Assembly: GCF_009733795.1 (NCBI RefSeq)
Contig: NZ_WNXX01000008.1
Location: 1-64,000, forward strand
Reading direction: 5' to 3'
Length of the DNA: 64,000 bases
From: Actinotalea caeni
GTDB lineage: Bacteria; Actinomycetota; Actinomycetes; Actinomycetales; Beutenbergiaceae
Part shown: piece by piece, positions 15,650-23,202 of the stretch
Layout of the letters: every line of letters starts with the position of its first letter
Position numbering within the stretch: position 1 is the stretch's first letter
The notes under the pieces: model-generated
Database searches by the model: none
What the model was told of the DNA's origin: nothing
Seen by the model: only the letters and a program-made list of their open reading frames with translations
Program-made: the position numbers and the translations under genes

Positions 15650-17098
15650 TCAGTGGGTGTCCTCGGCCTCGACCTCGGTGCGGTCGCCGGACCACAGCGT
15701 GTGGAAGGTGCCCTCGCGGTCGACGCGCTTGTAGGTGTGGGCGCCGAAGAAGTCGCGCTGGCCCTGCACGAGCGAGGCGGGCAGCCGCTCGGCGCGCAGC
15801 CCGTCGTAGTACGCGAGCGAGGCCGCGAACGCCGGCGCCGGGATCCCCGACATGGCGGCACCGGCGACGACGCGGCGCCAGGAGTCCTGCGCCTGCGCGA
15901 GCGCGTCGCGGAAGTACGGCGCGGTCGCGAGGCTGACCAGCCCGGGGTCGGTCTCGTAGGCCTCGGTGATCCGGTTGAGGAACCGCGCGCGGATGATGCA
16001 GCCGCCGCGCCAGATCTTGGCGATCTCGCCCTTCTTGATGTCCCAGCCGTACTCCTTGGCGCCGGCGATGATCTCGTCGAAGCCCTGGCTGTAGGCGATG
16101 ATCTTCGACGCGTACAGGGCGCGCCGCACGTCCTCGACGAACGCGGCCTCGTCCTCCACCTGCCACGTCTGGTCCGGCCCGGGCAGGTGTCGGGCGGCGG
16201 CGCGCGCCTCGCGGTCGGAGGACAGCGAGCGGGCGAACACGGCCTCGGCGATGCCCGAGACCGGGACGCCGAGGTCGAGCGCGGTCTGCACCGTCCAGGC
16301 GCCGGTGCCCTTGGCGCCGGCGGAGTCGAGGATGACGTCGACGAGCGGCGTGCCGGTGGCCGCGTCGACCTGGCGCAGCACCTCGGCGGTGATCTCGATG
16401 AGGTAGGAGTCCAGCTCGCCGGTGTTCCACTCGGCGAAGATGTCGGCGATCTCGGCCGGGGACCTGCCGGTGCCCTGTCGGATGAGGTCGTACGCCTCGG
16501 CGATCAGCTGCATGTCGGCGTACTCGATGCCGTTGTGGATCATCTTGACGAAGTGACCCGCGCCGTCGGTGCCGACGTGCGTGACGCACGGCTCGCCCTC
16601 GGCGACGGCCGCGATCGAGCGCAGGATCGGGCCGAGCGTCTCCCACGCCTCGGCGCTGCCGCCGGGCATGATCGACGGGCCGCGCAGCGCGCCCTCCTCG
16701 CCGCCGGAGATGCCGGCCCCGACGAAGTTGATGCCGGTCTCGCGGACGGCCTTCTCGCGGCGGATCGTGTCGGTGAACAGGGCGTTGCCGCCGTCGACGA
16801 TGATGTCGCCCGGCTCGAACACGCTCACCAGCTCGTCGATGACGGCGTCGGTGGCGCGGCCGGCCTTGACCATGATGATCGCCGTGCGCGGCCGCACGAG
16901 CACGTCGGCGAGCTCCTGCACCGTGGTCGCCTTGACGAACCCGGCCTCGGGGTGCGCCTCGAGCAGCGCGTCGGTCTTGGCCGTGGTCCGGTTGTAGACC
17001 GCGACGACGTTGCCCTCGCGGCTGGCGAGGTTGCGCGCCAGGTTCGAGCCCATGACGGCGAGGCCGACCACGGCGATGTTGGCGGTGGGGGTGGTCAT
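15650..17098 (-). CDS. gnd: 6-phosphogluconate dehydrogenase, decarboxylating
   Basis: A 482-residue oxidative pentose-phosphate enzyme making ribulose-5-phosphate, CO2 and NADPH. The Rossmann loop is VVGLAVMGSNLARNLASREG, NRTT follows for NADP, and the catalytic segment is GAGISGGEEGALRGPSIMPGG with HFVKMIHNGIEYADMQLIAEAYDL. Length matches the long family. It is monocistronic by spacing; repeat family B lies directly upstream. Confidence 0.97.
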   Translation of the reverse strand: MTTPTANIAVVGLAVMGSNLARNLASREGNVVAVYNRTTAKTDALLEAHPEAGFVKATTVQELADVLVRPRTAIIMVKAGRATDAVIDELVSVFEPGDIIVDGGNALFTDTIRREKAVRETGINFVGAGISGGEEGALRGPSIMPGGSAEAWETLGPILRSIAAVAEGEPCVTHVGTDGAGHFVKMIHNGIEYADMQLIAEAYDLIRQGTGRSPAEIADIFAEWNTGELDSYLIEITAEVLRQVDAATGTPLVDVILDSAGAKGTGAWTVQTALDLGVPVSGIAEAVFARSLSSDREARAAARHLPGPDQTWQVEDEAAFVEDVRRALYASKIIAYSQGFDEIIAGAKEYGWDIKKGEIAKIWRGGCIIRARFLNRITEAYETDPGLVSLATAPYFRDALAQAQDSWRRVVAGAAMSGIPAPAFAASLAYYDGLRAERLPASLVQGQRDFFGAHTYKRVDREGTFHTLWSGDRTEVEAEDTH

Positions 17099-17230
17099 CG
17101 TGTCTCCGTTCGTGCGCGTGCGTGCGGGCGGCGACCGGGCCGGCCGCGGTCAGCACAGACGATGCCAGCATCCCGCACCGGTGACGAACGCGTCTCACCC
17201 TCGCGACGCCGTCGCCCCCCCACAGCACGT

Positions 17231-17345
17231 CTCAACCCACTTCCGCCCCCACACCAGGTTTCAACCCACGTCCGCCCTGCCGCATCGGGCGGGTGGGGCA
17301 GAAGTGGGTTGAAACCTCGGCAGGGGGCAGACGTGGGTTGAAACC
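17231..17345. repeat. Family B repeat, inverted two-plus-two array
   Basis: Two direct copies (core CAACCCAC at 17233 and 17262) face two inverted copies (GTGGGTTG at 17304 and 17333), each pair 29 bp apart. The whole can fold into a long hairpin, and its right end abuts the stop codon of the symporter gene, so it may act as that gene's terminator. The same unit occurs at 35.2 and 48.5 kb. Confidence 0.75.
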
Positions 17346-18803
17346 TCAGGCGGAGGTGGAGGCGGGTTCGCGGTCCTCGGTGCGGACGGCGTCGCGCGCC
17401 TCCGCCTCCTCGGTGCGGTCCGCGGTGGCGGCACCGGGCTCGGTGTCGGAGTCGCGGAACAGGTCCTCGGCGGTGGCGGAGTCGTACTTCGCCTGGTCGA
17501 TGATGCCCTCGCGCTTGGCGACGATCGTCGGCACCAGGGCCTGCCCGGCGACGTTGACCGCGGTGCGGCCCATGTCGAGGATCGGGTCGATCGCCAGCAG
17601 CAGGCCGACGCCCTCCAGCGGCAGCCCGAGCGTCGACAGCGTCAGCGTGAGCATGACGACCGCGCCGGTGACGCCCGCCGTCGCGGCGGAGCCGACGACC
17701 GACACGAACGCGATGAGCACGTAGTGCCAGATGGTGAGGTCGATCCCGAAGAACTGCGCGACGAAGATCGCCGACAGCGCCGGGTAGATCGCAGCGCAGC
17801 CGTCCATCTTCGTGGTCGCGCCGAACGGCACGGCGAACGAGGCGTACTCGCGTGGCACGCCCAGGTTGCGCTCGACCACGCGCTGCGTCACGGGCAGCGT
17901 GCCGATCGAGGAGCGCGACACGAACGCCAGCTGGATGGCCGGCCACGCGCCGCGGAAGTAGCGGGCGATGCTGAGCCCGTTGGCGCGGAGCACGATCGGG
18001 TACACCGCGAACAGCACGAGCGCCAGCCCGATGTAGATCGCGATCGTGAAGGTGCCCAGCGGGGCGAGGGAGTCCCAGCCGTAGGTCGCGACGGCGCGCC
18101 CGATGAGGCCGATCGTGCCGAGCGGCGCGAGCCGGATGACCCACCACAGAACCTTCTGGATCACCTCGAGCGCCGAGCGGTTGAACGCGAGGAACGGCTC
18201 GGCCTTGTTGCCGGTGCGCAGCGCGGCGATGCCGACGACGATGCCGATGACCACGAGCTGCAGCACGTTGAAGCTCGCGCCGTTGCCCGAGACCTCGAGG
18301 CCGAGGAAGTTCGCCGGGATCAGACCGGTGAGGAAGTCGACCCACGTACCGGTGCGGCCCGGCTCGCCGGCCTGGGAGGCGTCGACCGACGTGTTCGCAC
18401 CCGGCTGCAGGATCAGCCCGAGCCCGATACCGATGAGGACCGAGATCAGCGCGGTGATCGCGAACCACAGCAGCGTCTGCCCCGCGAGGCGGGCGGCGTT
18501 GGTGACCTTCCGCAGGTTGGCGATCGAGGCGATGATCGCCGTCACGACCAGCGGCGGCACGATCGTGCGCAGCAGCGTGACGAAGCTCGACCCGATCGTG
18601 GCCAGGGTGTCGGTGAGCCAGTTCGGGATGTCGTTGCCGTCGGCGTCGACGCCGACGGGGCCCATGCGCAGGGCGACGGCGCCGAGCACGACGCCCAGGA
18701 CGAGCGAGATGAGGATCTGGACGGAGAACGAGGGCAGCCGCAGCCGTCGTCGTGGCTGCTCCGTCGGGGTGCCGCTCGAGGCGGCGGTGTCGGTCGAGGA
18801 CAT
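17346..18803 (-). CDS. Dicarboxylate/amino-acid:cation symporter, TcyP-like (cystine)
   Basis: A 485-residue DAACS/SDF-family secondary transporter with about eight membrane segments and two re-entrant loops. Motifs are SSIGTLPVTQRVV (first hairpin), KMDGCAAIYPALSAIF (where DctA/GltP proteins have NMDGT) and DPILDMGRTAVNVAGQAL. The GT(L/I)PVT and DGCAxxYPA forms resemble the TcyP cystine importers more than DctA. An acidic C-terminal tail of about 50 residues is unusual. ATG at 18803 has GGAG about eight bases upstream. The upstream leader peptide and hairpin support sulfur-source control, so I favour L-cystine uptake; dicarboxylate uptake is the alternative. Confidence 0.75.
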   Translation of the reverse strand: MSSTDTAASSGTPTEQPRRRLRLPSFSVQILISLVLGVVLGAVALRMGPVGVDADGNDIPNWLTDTLATIGSSFVTLLRTIVPPLVVTAIIASIANLRKVTNAARLAGQTLLWFAITALISVLIGIGLGLILQPGANTSVDASQAGEPGRTGTWVDFLTGLIPANFLGLEVSGNGASFNVLQLVVIGIVVGIAALRTGNKAEPFLAFNRSALEVIQKVLWWVIRLAPLGTIGLIGRAVATYGWDSLAPLGTFTIAIYIGLALVLFAVYPIVLRANGLSIARYFRGAWPAIQLAFVSRSSIGTLPVTQRVVERNLGVPREYASFAVPFGATTKMDGCAAIYPALSAIFVAQFFGIDLTIWHYVLIAFVSVVGSAATAGVTGAVVMLTLTLSTLGLPLEGVGLLLAIDPILDMGRTAVNVAGQALVPTIVAKREGIIDQAKYDSATAEDLFRDSDTEPGAATADRTEEAEARDAVRTEDREPASTSA

Positions 18804-18870
18804 GGAGATGCTCCAGGTAGGTGGTGGAGGAGGTCGCGGGGTCGCCGCGGGGGCCGGGTAGGGCGGCGAG

Positions 18871-18897
18871 CGCACGCCTGGTCGGTCAGGCGGTGCG
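18871..18897 (-). promoter_or_regulatory. Candidate attenuator hairpin after leader peptide
   Basis: CGCCTG (18875-18880) pairs with CAGGCG (18887-18892) around six bases, with a further CGCA/TGCG stem beyond a one-base bulge. It begins six bases after the leader stop and about 70 bases before the symporter start, the right place for ribosome-controlled termination. Confidence 0.45.
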
Positions 18898-18902
18898 TGC
18901 GG

Positions 18903-18983
18903 TCAGCGACACATGGCGCTGGCGACCCGGAGCAGGTCGACGGCGCGGCGGCTCGTGAAGGAGCCCGAGGTGAACGTGTGCAT
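18903..18983 (-). CDS. Short cysteine-type leader peptide
   Basis: A 26-residue ORF that starts MHTFTSG and ends RRAVDLLRVASAMCR followed by TGA. The R-R-x-V-D-L-x-R ... C-R pattern matches the actinobacterial putative leader peptides found before sulfur and cysteine genes, where ribosome stalling at the terminal Cys reports cysteinyl-tRNA supply. There is no Shine-Dalgarno; TACCGT lies about 15 bases upstream, so the mRNA may be nearly leaderless. It precedes the hairpin and the symporter on the same strand. Confidence 0.65.
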   Translation of the reverse strand: MHTFTSGSFTSRRAVDLLRVASAMCR

Positions 18984-19055
18984 GACGAGTGCACGGTACC
19001 CGCGTCGGGACGGGCAGGGCGCCGCCGTCGGCACGTCTCACCATCTGGGACGCGC

Positions 19056-19880
19056 TCAGGCGGGGACCGTGCGGTGGCCCTCCGCGACGTGGTGGCGCCC
19101 GAGCGGCAGCACCATCGGCTTGCCGCACGTCGGGTCCGGCACGACGACGCTGCTCAGCCCGAACACGTCGGCGACGCACTCGCGGGTGAGCACCTCGGCG
19201 GCCTCGCCGCAGGCGTAGAGGGCGCCGTCGCGGATCGCGACGAGGTGGTCGGCGTAGCGGGCGGCGAGGTTGAGGTCGTGCAGCACCATGACGATCGTGG
19301 TGCCGAGCTCGCGGTTGAGGTCGGTCAGCAGGTCGAGCACCTCGACCTGGTGCGCGACGTCGAGGAACGTGGTCGGCTCGTCGAGCAGCAGCACGTCGGT
19401 CTCCTGCGCGAGCACCATCGCGATCCACACGCGCTGCCGCTGCCCACCCGAGAGCTCGTCGACGGCGCGATCGGCCAGGTCGGCGGTGCCGGTCACCTCG
19501 AGCGCACGCGCGACGGCGGCGTCGTCCTCGGCGCTCCAGCGCGACAGCATGCCCTGGTGCGGGTGGCGGCCCCGGCCGACGAGGTCGGCGACGGCGATGC
19601 CCTCGGGCGCGACCGGCGACTGCGGCAGCAGCCCCAGCGTGCGCGCCACCTCCTTGGTGGGCGTCCGGTGGATCTCCTTGCCGTCCAGCAGCACCGCACC
19701 CGTGCGCGGGGCGAGCAGGCGCGACATCGCCTTGAGCACGGTCGACTTGCCGGAGGCGTTCGCCCCGACGATCGCGGTCACCTTGCCGGGCGGGATCACG
19801 AGGTCGAGGTCGTCGACGACGGTGCGGTCGCCGTAGCCGAGGCTGAGGCCCGCCGCGGCGAGCGTGTGGTCGGAGGTCAT
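19056..19880 (-). CDS. Iron-siderophore ABC transporter ATPase (FepC/FecE type)
   Basis: A 274-residue ATPase with Walker A GANASGKST (about residue 39), Q-loop LLPQSP, signature LSGGQRQRVWIA and Walker B DVLLLDEPTTFLD. It powers the two permeases upstream. Its ATG overlaps the stop of the small repeat ORF by ATGA. The last gene of the operon; transcription runs from the iron box at 23.24 kb. Confidence 0.93.
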   Translation of the reverse strand: MTSDHTLAAAGLSLGYGDRTVVDDLDLVIPPGKVTAIVGANASGKSTVLKAMSRLLAPRTGAVLLDGKEIHRTPTKEVARTLGLLPQSPVAPEGIAVADLVGRGRHPHQGMLSRWSAEDDAAVARALEVTGTADLADRAVDELSGGQRQRVWIAMVLAQETDVLLLDEPTTFLDVAHQVEVLDLLTDLNRELGTTIVMVLHDLNLAARYADHLVAIRDGALYACGEAAEVLTRECVADVFGLSSVVVPDPTCGKPMVLPLGRHHVAEGHRTVPA

Positions 19881-20023
19881 GCGGAGGCCTCGCAGAGCCG
19901 GTCGGTGGGTCGGGTCGGGAGGAGGGAGCTCGGCAGGGTCGGACGGATCGGCCGGATCGGACGGGTCGGCCGGGTCGGACGGGTCGGGCGGGTCGGGCGG
20001 GTCGGCTGACGAGGCACGGTCAC
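19877..20023 (-). CDS. Small Pro-Thr-Arg repeat ORF in the siderophore operon
   Basis: A 48-residue frame beginning VTVPRQ, then five PTR and two PIR triplets, then PSSLL and PTRPTDRLCEASA. Its GTG overlaps the stop of the permease gene (GTGA), and its stop overlaps the ATPase ATG (ATGA). Such perfect coupling at both ends suggests it is translated, if only to hand ribosomes on to the ATPase gene. No homologue is known to me. The codons form a 9-bp tandem DNA repeat, so length may vary in steps of three residues without breaking the frame. It may equally be a non-functional relay. Confidence 0.5.
   Translation of the reverse strand: MTVPRQPTRPTRPTRPTRPTRPIRPIRPTLPSSLLPTRPTDRLCEASA
19911..20008. 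repeat. 9-bp tandem repeat GGGTCGGNC
   Basis: About ten imperfect copies of a GGGTCGG(A/C/G)C-like 9-bp unit lie between permease and ATPase genes. On the minus strand they encode the Pro-Thr-Arg triplets of the small ORF. Being a multiple of three, slippage would keep the frame open. Confidence 0.7.
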
Positions 20024-21072
20024 ATCACCCCTCCGGTCCGCTGGGAGCGCACGAGCAGGTAGATGAGGAACGGGGCGCCGAGCGCGCCGGTGATGACGCC
20101 GACCGGGAACCGGGTGCCGAGCGCGTACTGCGCGACGAAGTCGGCCACGAGCACCAGCAGCGCGCCGAACAGCCCCGACGCGAGCACGGGCGAGCCCACC
20201 GGGCCGAGGATGCGCGCCGTGATCGGGCCGGAGAGGAAGGCGACGAACGCGATCGGGCCGGCGGCCGCCGTCCCGAAGGCCATGAGCGCGACGGCGCAGA
20301 CGATCAGCAGCACCCGGACGCGCTCGACGGGTACGCCCAGCGCGGCGGCGGTCTGGTCGCCGAGCCGGAGCGCCTCCAGGTCGCGGGTGAGGCGCAGCAG
20401 CACCGGGGTGAGCACGACGACCGCGAGCAGCAGCGGCAGCAGCCGCTCGTAGGTGGCGCCGTTGAGGTTGCCGGTCAGCCACCGCATCGCGACCTGCATG
20501 TCCCACGCGGCCGCGCCGGACAGCACGTAGGAGACCACGCTCGCGAGCATCGAGGAGATGCCGATGCCGACGAGGATCAGCCGGGTGTTGGCGACCCCCT
20601 GCCGGTAGGCGAGCAGGTAGATGACGAGCGCGGTCAGCAGCGCGACCACGGTCGCGAACGCCGACACCGCGCTCGGGCTCAGGTCGAGCACGAGGATGCC
20701 GATGACGGCGGCCGCGCTCGCGCCGGAGCTGATGCCGATGACGTCCGGGCTGGCGAGCGGGTTGCGGAGCATCGTCTGGAACGTCGACCCCGCGAGGCCG
20801 AACGCGAGCCCGACCATCAGCCCGGTGAGCGCGCGCGGCAGCCGCAGCGTGCCGACCGTGAAGGACGCGCCGTCGACGTCGGCGCCCATGATCACCGCGA
20901 CGACGTCGGAGAGCGGGTAGACGGTGCGGCCGAGCACGAGCGAGAGCACGAGCGCGACGACGACCGCGACCGCGAGCCCGACGTGCACGAGCAGGCGCCG
21001 TCGTGCGCGGCGACGGCGGCCGGCGGCGACGACGTCGGCGGTGGCGGGGCTCGCCTCCTGCACCGCCGTCAC
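20020..21072 (-). CDS. Iron-siderophore ABC permease (FepG/FecD type)
   Basis: A 350-residue FecCD-family permease with about ten membrane segments. Landmarks are LRLPRALTGLMVGLAFGLAG, NPLASPDVIGISSGA, and the cytoplasmic coupling loop in AAGPIAFVAFLSGPITARILG. The GTG start overlaps the upstream permease stop (GTGA). Confidence 0.92.
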   Translation of the reverse strand: MTAVQEASPATADVVAAGRRRRARRRLLVHVGLAVAVVVALVLSLVLGRTVYPLSDVVAVIMGADVDGASFTVGTLRLPRALTGLMVGLAFGLAGSTFQTMLRNPLASPDVIGISSGASAAAVIGILVLDLSPSAVSAFATVVALLTALVIYLLAYRQGVANTRLILVGIGISSMLASVVSYVLSGAAAWDMQVAMRWLTGNLNGATYERLLPLLLAVVVLTPVLLRLTRDLEALRLGDQTAAALGVPVERVRVLLIVCAVALMAFGTAAAGPIAFVAFLSGPITARILGPVGSPVLASGLFGALLVLVADFVAQYALGTRFPVGVITGALGAPFLIYLLVRSQRTGGVM

Positions 21073-22115
21073 AGCTCGCGCACCTTCTGCCGGCGCACGA
21101 TCCAGATGAAGAACGGGGCGCCGACGATCGCGGTGATGATGCCTGCCTGGATCTCCTCGGTGCCGCCCACGAGGCGGCCGACGACGTCGGCGCCGGTGAG
21201 CAGCGCGGCGCCGCCGAGCCCCGAGAGCGGGATCAGCCAGCGGTGGTCGACCCCGGTGAGCAGCCGCACGACGTGCGGCACGACCAGGCCGACGAACCCG
21301 ATGGGGCCGGCGACCGCCGTCGCGGCGCCGCAGAGCACGACACCACCGAGCGCGGCGACCAGCCGGGCGCGCACGACGTCCTGCCCGAGCCCCGCGGCGA
21401 GCTCGTCGCCGAGCGCGAGCGAGTTGAGCGCGCGCGCCGAGGCCCACGAGATCAGCAGCCCCGCCGCGAGGAACGGCAGCGCGAGCGCGATCGTGGCCCA
21501 GGTGCCGCCCCCGACGCCGCCGATCTGCCAGAACCGGAACTGCTGCATGTCCTGCGCGCGCGGCAGCAGGATCGCGCTCACCAGCGAGCCCAGCGCCACC
21601 GAGGTCGCGGCGCCCGCGAGCGCCAGCTTGAGCGGCGTCGCGCCGCCACGGCCCAGCGAGCCGACGACGTAGACGAACACCGCGGCGACCGCGGCCCCGA
21701 CCATCGCGACCCAGATGTAGCCGACCGCCGTCGACAGCCCCAGGAACACGATGCCCACGACGACGGCGAGCGAGGCGCCGGCGTTGACGCCGAGGATCTC
21801 GGGGTCGGCCAGCGGGTTGCGGGTGACGCCCTGCATGACGGCGCCCGAGATGCCGAGCGCGGCCCCGATGACCATCGCGAACACCGTCCGCGGCATGCGC
21901 TTGACGACTGCGGCCTGCGCCGTCGTGTCCTGGTGCCCGGTGATGCCCGCGACCAGGTCGTCCCAGCCGACGTCGAGCACGCCGAACGTCACCGACGCGA
22001 CGCCGAGGAGCGCGACGACCACGACGAGCAGCAGCGCCACGAGGGTGCGCACGGAGGCCGGGCGCCGCCTCGCGGCGGCGACCGGCCTGACGGCGACGAC
22101 CGCTGGGGCCGTCAC
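21069..22115 (-). CDS. Iron-siderophore ABC permease (FepD/FecC type)
   Basis: A 348-residue FecCD-family permease, partner of the next gene. It shows KRMPRTVFAMVIGAALGISGAVMQGVTRNPLADPEILGVNAGA and GPIGFVGLVVPHVVRLLTG. It lies 37 bp downstream of the binding-protein gene and is coupled to the second permease. Confidence 0.92.
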   Translation of the reverse strand: MTAPAVVAVRPVAAARRRPASVRTLVALLLVVVVALLGVASVTFGVLDVGWDDLVAGITGHQDTTAQAAVVKRMPRTVFAMVIGAALGISGAVMQGVTRNPLADPEILGVNAGASLAVVVGIVFLGLSTAVGYIWVAMVGAAVAAVFVYVVGSLGRGGATPLKLALAGAATSVALGSLVSAILLPRAQDMQQFRFWQIGGVGGGTWATIALALPFLAAGLLISWASARALNSLALGDELAAGLGQDVVRARLVAALGGVVLCGAATAVAGPIGFVGLVVPHVVRLLTGVDHRWLIPLSGLGGAALLTGADVVGRLVGGTEEIQAGIITAIVGAPFFIWIVRRQKVREL

Positions 22116-22152
22116 CTCGCGCTGCGTCGTGGTCGTGGTTCGCTCCTCGGGC

Positions 22153-23202
22153 TCAGGAGGCCTTGCCGGCGGCCTCGTCGAGCAGCGGCAGGTAGTTCTC
22201 GATGAGGTGCGCGATGCCGAGCGGGCTCGGGTTCGCCGACGACGCCGTCGTGGGGTCGGTCGTCTCGTCGAGGAAGACGATCGCGCCGTCGGCGACCGCC
22301 GGGATCCGGGAGAGCAGCGGGTCGGACTGCAGCACCTCGAGCTCCTCGCCGGTGCCGTAGGTGACGATGACCTCGACGTCGGCGAGCTCGTCGACCGCCT
22401 CGGCGCTGATCGTGGTGAAGAACTCGTCGGTGCTCGCCGCCGCGACGGCCTGCGGCACCGTGAACCCGGCCTCCTCGACGAGGAACCGCTCGCGGGGGTC
22501 GGCGAGGCTGTAGAAGCCGACGCTCGACAGGTCGGTGACGTCCACCCAGGCGAACATCGCGGGCTGGCCGTCGATGTTGTCGTAGCCGGCGACGGCGTCG
22601 GCCAGCTGGGTCTGCAGCTCCTCGACGAGCGCCTCGGCCTCGGCCGCCAGGCCGAGCGCGGTGCCGTTCATCGTGATCGTCTGCTGCCAGGTGGTGCCCC
22701 ACGGCACGTCCGGGTAGGCGACGACCGGGGCGATCTGGCTGAGCGTGCTGTAGTCGTCGTCCGTCAGGCCCGAGTAGGCGGAGAGGATGACGTCGGGGTC
22801 GGCGTCGGCGACGGCCTCGAAGTCGATGCCGTCGGTGCCGTCGTAGAGCGCCGGGGTCTCGGCGCCGAGCTCGGCGAGCGCGTCCTCGACCCACGGCAGC
22901 ACGCCGTCGCCGTCGTCGTCGCCCCAGGTGGCCTCCTCCATGACGACCGGGACGACGCCGAGCGCGAGCGCGGCCTCCTGGTTGCTCCACCCGACGGTCG
23001 CGACCCGCTCGGGCTGCGACTCGATCACGGTCTCGCCGAACGCGTGGGTGATCGTGACCGGGAACGCGGACGACGCCTCGGGGGTGTCGACGGCGCCATC
23101 GCCGTCACCGGCGTCGCTGCCGGCGTCGCCGCCGGCGCAGGAGGCGAGGACCAGGGAGGCGGCAACCGCGACGGCGGCCGCGAACGGGCGCGTGACGCGC
23201 AT
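22153..23202 (-). CDS. Iron-siderophore binding lipoprotein (FepB/FecB type)
   Basis: A 349-residue class III binding protein. The signal peptide ends in lipobox LASC (residues 18-21) with an acidic Gly/Asp linker after it. The core starts PVTITHAFGETVIESQPERVATVGWSNQEAALALGVVPV, the usual opening of ferric-siderophore binders. It is the first gene of the operon and has the iron box about 31 bp upstream, so it is made under iron starvation. No biosynthetic genes are near, so the siderophore may be imported from others. Confidence 0.92.
   Translation of the reverse strand: MRVTRPFAAAVAVAASLVLASCAGGDAGSDAGDGDGAVDTPEASSAFPVTITHAFGETVIESQPERVATVGWSNQEAALALGVVPVVMEEATWGDDDGDGVLPWVEDALAELGAETPALYDGTDGIDFEAVADADPDVILSAYSGLTDDDYSTLSQIAPVVAYPDVPWGTTWQQTITMNGTALGLAAEAEALVEELQTQLADAVAGYDNIDGQPAMFAWVDVTDLSSVGFYSLADPRERFLVEEAGFTVPQAVAAASTDEFFTTISAEAVDELADVEVIVTYGTGEELEVLQSDPLLSRIPAVADGAIVFLDETTDPTTASSANPSPLGIAHLIENYLPLLDEAAGKAS

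Follow-up and report, generated by a model that had tools for sequence, protein, structure and literature searches.

What is the function of a reading frame of 26 codons that lies directly upstream of a DAACS symporter gene, on the same strand, in Actinotalea caeni? The frame was found in a 64,000-nt stretch of the genome (the window), and the first-pass annotation had described it as a leader peptide of a type that belongs to sulfur genes. The open reading frame (minus strand, 18903–18983) begins with an ATG at 18983, ends with a TGA stop at 18905–18903 and encodes the peptide MHTFTSGSFTSRRAVDLLRVASAMCR, with a single Cys codon and no Cys run before the stop. The NCBIfam model NF042934 "putative leader peptide" matched the 26-aa form with 36.7 bits (E = 2.2e-9, cut-off 27) and a 43-aa form with 35.3 bits, against the same cut-off of 27. 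Among the five NF042934 matches at E ≤ 10 in the 4.0-Mb genome, the leader is the only one above the cut-off, and the 26-codon ORF is confirmed as a real, conserved leader. A −10-like hexamer, TACCGT (18993–18998, minus strand), lies 9 nt before the leader ATG, with no Shine-Dalgarno sequence seen between the two, and is possibly the promoter of a leaderless or nearly leaderless transcript. In the two congeneric genomes G012 and G013, TACCGT likewise stands 9 nt ahead of an ATG (three congeneric genomes in all), and the random-site rate of TAnnnT at such gaps is 0.0008. Elements of this kind precede only 6 of the 25 symporter leaders examined.

The leader is conserved before symporter orthologues in several families, and the reading of the first-pass annotation passes this check. 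We collected 103 orthologous symporter loci, 23 from a family search and 80 from named genomes; four of these are the same locus taken twice, leaving 99 distinct loci. A leader with its cysteine was present at 32 of the 103 (27 identified by a motif regular expression and 5 more by an HMM built on 151 leaders), and 71 have no verified cysteine-bearing leader. All 27 motif matches lay on the sense strand upstream of symporter orthologues (70,922 bases searched); the other 976,764 strand-bases of those loci contained none. The HMM was meant to leave out known symporter leaders, and 3 of its 151 sequences proved to precede a symporter; it had no match in reverse-strand controls, missed two of the leaders found by the regular expression and added seven loci, comprising the five with cysteine, one weak match (L089, E = 0.1) and one locus in Kineococcus sp. 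TRM81007 (L130). The Kineococcus leader reads ...RTASAV-TAG, with a stop codon in place of the expected motif Cys codon, and is a natural leader without its cysteine upstream of a symporter. Within the family of Actinotalea, an NF042934 match (E ≤ 0.01) precedes the symporter in 4 of 24 genomes, three of them above the cut-off; 23 of the 24 genomes have a symporter orthologue, so that only 4 of 23 orthologues have the leader and 19 lack it. One more weak match, in G012, is inside a long frame. Genera in which the leader occurs are, among others, Cellulosimicrobium, Paraoerskovia, Sediminihabitans, Oerskovia, Cellulomonas, Georgenia, Actinotalea, Jiangella, Nocardiopsis and Desertihabitans.

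When the class was searched with E. coli TcyP, 40 of 118 genomes gave 52 matches in all, 30 with loci. The leader was found at 15 of the 21 tree-placed members of the window's symporter clade, as compared to none of 14 other DAACS paralogues (Fisher p = 1.8e-5); among the DAACS paralogues examined, the leader is conserved before this clade and not before the others. Eight of the 14 came from the class-wide search and six from the family; the tree places 12 of them outside the clade, and L064 and L066 are unplaced. An additional locus outside the tree, L295, also has a leader. Alphaproteobacterial orthologues from Devosia, Rhizobium and Agrobacterium (L093, L099, L113, L119 and others) are ∼63–69% identical to the window's symporter, and the four that were put in the tree nest within the actinobacterial clade, which points to transfer. 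Neither the regular expression nor the HMM found a leader before these Devosia, Rhizobium and Agrobacterium orthologues.

Which genes do leaders of this type precede? For 175 of 181 distinct leaders a script chose the downstream ORF by length and codon bias, yielding 27 groups, and one representative was scanned in each of 20 (group sizes in brackets). The groups are DUF4395 (24), sulfite/nitrite reductase (20), rhodanese (20), SBP_bac_5 (15), the CysM-like PALP (8), NAD_binding_9 (6), cysteine dioxygenase (6), luciferase-like monooxygenase (6), ThiS (6), PAPS reductase (6 and 1), sulfatase (5), FMN reductase (3), TauE (2), NMT1-like (2), flavin reductase (2), and TauD, NlpA lipoprotein, 2OG oxygenase and CbiX (1 each). 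SBP_bac_5, NAD_binding_9 and DUF4395 are not sulfur-specific by name, and of six unscanned single-member groups one, downstream of the leader L022, seems to have no relation to sulfur. The symporter forms a group of 33, a figure that is inflated because symporter loci were fetched on purpose. Most other NF042934 leaders thus appear, from the domains of their downstream genes, to precede genes of a sulfur type, in agreement with the sulfur association that the first-pass annotation had assigned to the leader.

The window's leader resembles NF042934 (cis_reg_atten) in its score above the curated cut-off, in its RR.VDL.R.ASA.C core and in the sulfur-type genes that members precede; it differs in that its target is a DAACS symporter, and the family name is an annotation, not a test. 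The mycobacterial Cys-rich leader peptides Ms5788A and Ms4527A, which we take to be the cysteine attenuators of Canestrari et al. 2020, share with it a short ORF, a related core and Cys near the stop. Against these two models the leader scores 26.5 and 16.3 bits, respectively, both below the cut-off of 45, and they carry a Cys run, as against one Cys codon in the window's leader. In a reference cited by PMC13236596, the title calls the tested mycobacterial attenuators polycysteine.

The motif Cys codon (18909–18911, minus strand; NF042934 position 19), which is the presumed sensing codon, is UGU, ordinarily a rare codon. In distinct leaders sampled from the best-scoring matches it is TGT in 151 of 154 and TGC in 3, and addition of the named symporter leaders brings the count of TGT to 178 of 181. 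Twenty further cysteine-bearing leaders all have TGT, some of them being the same loci as earlier ones, and among leaders with a single Cys the codon is TGT in 78 of 80. Other Cys codons within the sampled leaders are mostly TGC (45 TGT versus 167 TGC), as are those at position −7 (3 versus 64) and those of the downstream genes of the sampled loci (39 versus 216). The searches were run on protein, so the third base was unselected by the search. GAT accounts for 31 of 154 Asp codons and CAT for 9 of 95 His codons in the sampled leaders, and there is therefore no general preference for T of the size of the UGU rule. Synonymous codon use at Arg(−13) is mixed, like background (p = 0.17), which indicates selection on the peptide at this position. 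Ser(−3) is AGC in 86 of 101, a bias that may be inertia because TCN is two steps away. Phylogenetic inertia was rejected as the source of UGU, since TGT to TGC is one transition and the Arg(−13) codons are mixed as in background.

UGU is, as a rule, read only by wobble. The simplest account of the rule would be that the ribosome has to pause at this one position and that a slow codon, read by wobble, stands there. A search of the open-licence literature found no statement of the UGU rule, and it is the part of the results that a specialist might not expect. In the uORFC-8-2 attenuator of cysS in Rhodobacterales, as described in PMC8632094, uORF Cys codons are likewise present and ribosome-mediated attenuation is proposed, but the Cys codons are in tandem with UGC dominant, the reverse of the codon rule here, and an intrinsic terminator with a U-run follows.

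RNA pairing was assayed by counting exact complements of leader 5- to 7-mers in the 60 or 120 nt after the stop of 179 leaders. At leader offsets −36 to −2 there was no excess of downstream complements in these 179 leaders (z at most 2.4). From offset −1 on, some excess appeared in the 120-nt window, with z of 4.8 at −1 (6-mers), 4.2 at +3 (7-mers) and 3.3–3.7 at +8 and +9. Of the 179 leaders, 23 have a downstream complement to the 6-mer at −1, which includes the UGU codon (9.5 expected), and 156 have no exact complement. The window is among the 23: an exact complement of its 6-mer GTGTCG (18907–18912, minus strand) occurs in the 120 nt that follow the stop, and inspection by eye places it in the opening codons of the symporter. 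To judge from this excess, RNA pairing may be some part of the cause of the UGU rule. As the cause of the conserved codons before the cysteine it was rejected, there being no excess complementarity to the spacer, and an AGCGC–GCGCU pairing seen by eye in three congeneric genomes was unsupported by the complement count.

Between the leader stop and the symporter lies a rut-like spacer of 99 nt (18804–18902, minus strand), with 54% C and 23% G. Its first 85 nt rank in the top 0.11% of the window's minus strand for C minus G. Spacers of symporter leaders are 45–254 nt long, average 53% C and 27% G, and have C minus G above 0.1 in 26 of the 26 measured, as compared to 16 of 76 upstream stretches of orthologues without a leader found by the regular expression, an imperfect control because these stretches are of another kind (promoters may lie in them, and a few have HMM-found leaders). 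Across the wider set, the first 60 nt after the stop are C-rich and G-poor in 142 of 179 usable leaders, the corresponding stretch 300 nt further on in 61, and the sequence before the leader in 9 of 181. The conserved feature downstream of the leader is this C-rich, G-poor spacer and not a hairpin. C-rich, G-poor stretches have the look of Rho loading sites, and base composition suggests that the spacer is possibly such a site. An Rfam search gave three matches, all of unrelated kinds and below the gathering score. For mycobacterial cys-operon leaders, PMC1262725 describes an absence of terminators and a suggestion of Rho that its authors call weak.

Taken with the motifs of the symporter described below, we consider it probable that the ORF is a cysteine-responsive attenuator leader of the actinobacterial NF042934 type that governs one gene, a TcyP-like symporter most likely importing cystine or a closely related sulfur amino acid. 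Where the supply of Cys-tRNA suffices, the ribosome would pass UGU, stop one codon later and leave, and symporter expression would then be cut off, most likely by Rho that loads onto the C-rich spacer. Under a shortage of Cys-tRNA it would instead pause with UGU in the A site, where the conserved nascent segment RRxVDLxRxASAx may contribute to holding it; its leading edge would then lie over the stop codon and the first part of the spacer, so that the symporter would be expressed. A stalled ribosome would cover only the start of a spacer of this length, a point against the Rho step. The single Cys codon, the majority of orthologous loci without a verified cysteine-bearing leader, the excess of complements for the 6-mer that includes UGU, and the tree results on TcyP and on a constraint to DctA/GltP (below) are points against the reading as a whole.

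The strongest competing mechanism is translational attenuation as in mycobacteria, in which the stalled ribosome would break a structure that hides the symporter RBS and Rho would have no role; we regard this as a serious alternative at less than an even chance. Translation attenuation of cysteine genes in M. smegmatis is among the work cited in a 2026 paper (PMC13236596), and the complement of the UGU-spanning 6-mer, which the window shares, would fit such a structure. When the leader region was covered in a folding model, the RBS was predicted to become more accessible for 15 of the 27 symporter leaders, the mean moving from 0.42 to 0.48 (Wilcoxon p = 0.011; a script chose the start codons), yet covering up to the stop codon gave a nearly equal mean of 0.47, so the model cannot separate stalled from finished ribosomes. 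In the window itself, where UGGAG (18811–18815, minus strand) is the probable Shine-Dalgarno sequence of the symporter, the RBS is predicted to be unpaired at 0.46 when free and 0.44 when stalled, with no relief, and the lack of excess complementarity between the spacer and the codons preceding the cysteine also speaks against this mechanism. RBS sequestration is thus weakly supported by the model over the 27 leaders and not in the window. The symporter RBS is strikingly uniform, being CGAAAGG or CGGAAGG in 16 of 27 loci as counted by eye.

Returning to the cysteine-responsive attenuator, a more specific version of it would make the NF042934 family one uniform class of sulfur sensor. The leader would act as an arrest peptide whose tuning lies in its choice of codon: one UGU, read only by wobble, lies nine residues after the Asp of VDL and behind a conserved nascent segment that would hold the ribosome. 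We offer this tentatively and think it rather unlikely as a whole. If it is true, one cysteine codon would be enough in these leaders, in contrast to the runs of other attenuators. Sulfur-dependent modification of tRNA at A37 affects the reading of codons that start with U, and, as a further step, loss of this modification might feed sulfur status into the UGU codon.

What does the symporter carry? The gene (17346–18803, minus strand) encodes a 485-aa DAACS protein (SDF, PF00375, 346 bits) that is 33% identical to E. coli TcyP, 31% to GltP, 28% to DctA and 24% to SstT. The first-pass annotation had read the leader as an argument for cystine import and had found the motifs GTLPVT and DGCAAIYPA in agreement. 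Both motifs are present. Of the four E. coli yardsticks, TcyP alone has the same additional residue and YPA in DGCAAIYPA, the SRSS of HP1, a further inserted residue ahead of LGVP, and both the P and the G within DPILDMGRT; SstT has RSS alone in common, and the aspartate transporter of PDB 9bgz has neither of the one-residue insertions. Written as patterns, the likeness to TcyP consists of SRSS in HP1, [DN]GCA..YPA with the same extra residue and [DE]P..DMGRT in TM8; the differences are the identity of only 33%, K-M-D-G in the symporter versus G-Q-N-G, and a clade of its own. YdjN is an older name of TcyP. PMC4383340 describes E. coli YdjN as a cystine importer by uptake and growth tests.

In a tree of 66 rows the window's clade (50 rows) has support of 100/100, and DctA, GltP and their actinobacterial kin (ten rows) form a separate clade at 100/99. 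The symporter therefore lies outside the DctA/GltP clade, and the comparison with DctA that the first-pass annotation had proposed comes out on the side of its reading. Over TcyP the trees differ: it is on a branch of 4.9 with a backbone position without resolution in the 66-row tree, and joins the window's clade at 98/93 in a tree of 26 rows that omits SstT together with three further rows, long or distant, and many near-copies, where TcyP remains a long branch and carries a long-branch warning. A sister relation to TcyP is only conditionally supported by these trees. In the 26-row set, a tree holding the window's clade with DctA/GltP against TcyP was disfavoured and not rejected (p-AU 0.07).

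The symporter might instead carry glutamate/aspartate or a C4-dicarboxylate, with the leader coupling it to cysteine in another way. Its identity to GltP is close to that to TcyP, its TM8 keeps the DMxRT..N pattern common to GltP, and the tree constrained to DctA/GltP survives testing. Its best NCBIfam scores are to the DctA and GltP models, though far below cut-off (202.3 bits against 513 for DctA), and no TcyP model was matched in NCBIfam, even from E. coli TcyP. We nevertheless judge this substrate class improbable, given the separation of the clades in the full tree, the TcyP-like motifs with their two insertions and the 14 other paralogues examined that have no leader. From the leader and the motifs shared with TcyP we infer that the symporter is probably an importer of cystine or another sulfur amino acid, so that the cystine assignment of the first-pass annotation stands as a probable one.

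The hairpin that the same annotation had noted right after the leader stop (about 18871–18897, minus strand) is real in the window's sequence but is not a conserved part. A 46-nt piece folds at −17.9 kcal/mol, with 4 of 200 shuffles as stable, the 50 nt after the window's leader stop have a z of −2.9, and the hairpin sits 12–38 nt 3′ of the Cys codon, a position and stability that would suit attenuation by an intrinsic terminator. No terminator-like U-tract is present at the hairpin, and the 50 nt after the stop of 27 symporter leaders have no added structure (mean z of −0.50 versus −0.42 in the coding control), nor is the structure after the stop of 152 other leaders above the coding control; we consider termination of this kind very unlikely. 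That the short ORF is a chance reading frame, of which high-GC sequence has many (47 of at least 20 aa overlap 16000–23000), is as good as contradicted by the HMM E-value, by conservation of the peptide before orthologues with no background match in the 976,764 strand-bases, and by the UGU rule.

Genes of a siderophore-type ABC transporter (19056–23202), on the same strand, end just upstream of the leader. These encode the binding protein (22153–23202, minus strand), an FecCD permease (21069–22115, minus strand) and the ATPase (19056–19880, minus strand), together with an ORF (20020–21447, minus strand) whose end resembles a second permease by eye and whose scanned slice had no match. At the congeneric locus L007 the same ATPase end, by eye, also precedes the leader. 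On the other side, between the symporter and gnd, an inverted repeat (17217–17352) has 49-nt arms that are 82% complementary and is made of tandem 29-nt units around TGGGTTGAAAC.

The interpretation of the first-pass annotation is supported, with the hairpin demoted and cystine a probable substrate. The leader type was already known; here its target is a DAACS symporter, and the UGU rule was not met in the literature searched. The leader links a clade of DAACS symporters to the supply of cysteine. Since the window's symporter scores far below the curated DctA and GltP models, this link supplies genes that lack a firm assignment with a substrate that can be tested. With the UGU rule comes a sharp and inexpensive handle on how these leaders sense cysteine, because one base can be changed without altering the peptide.
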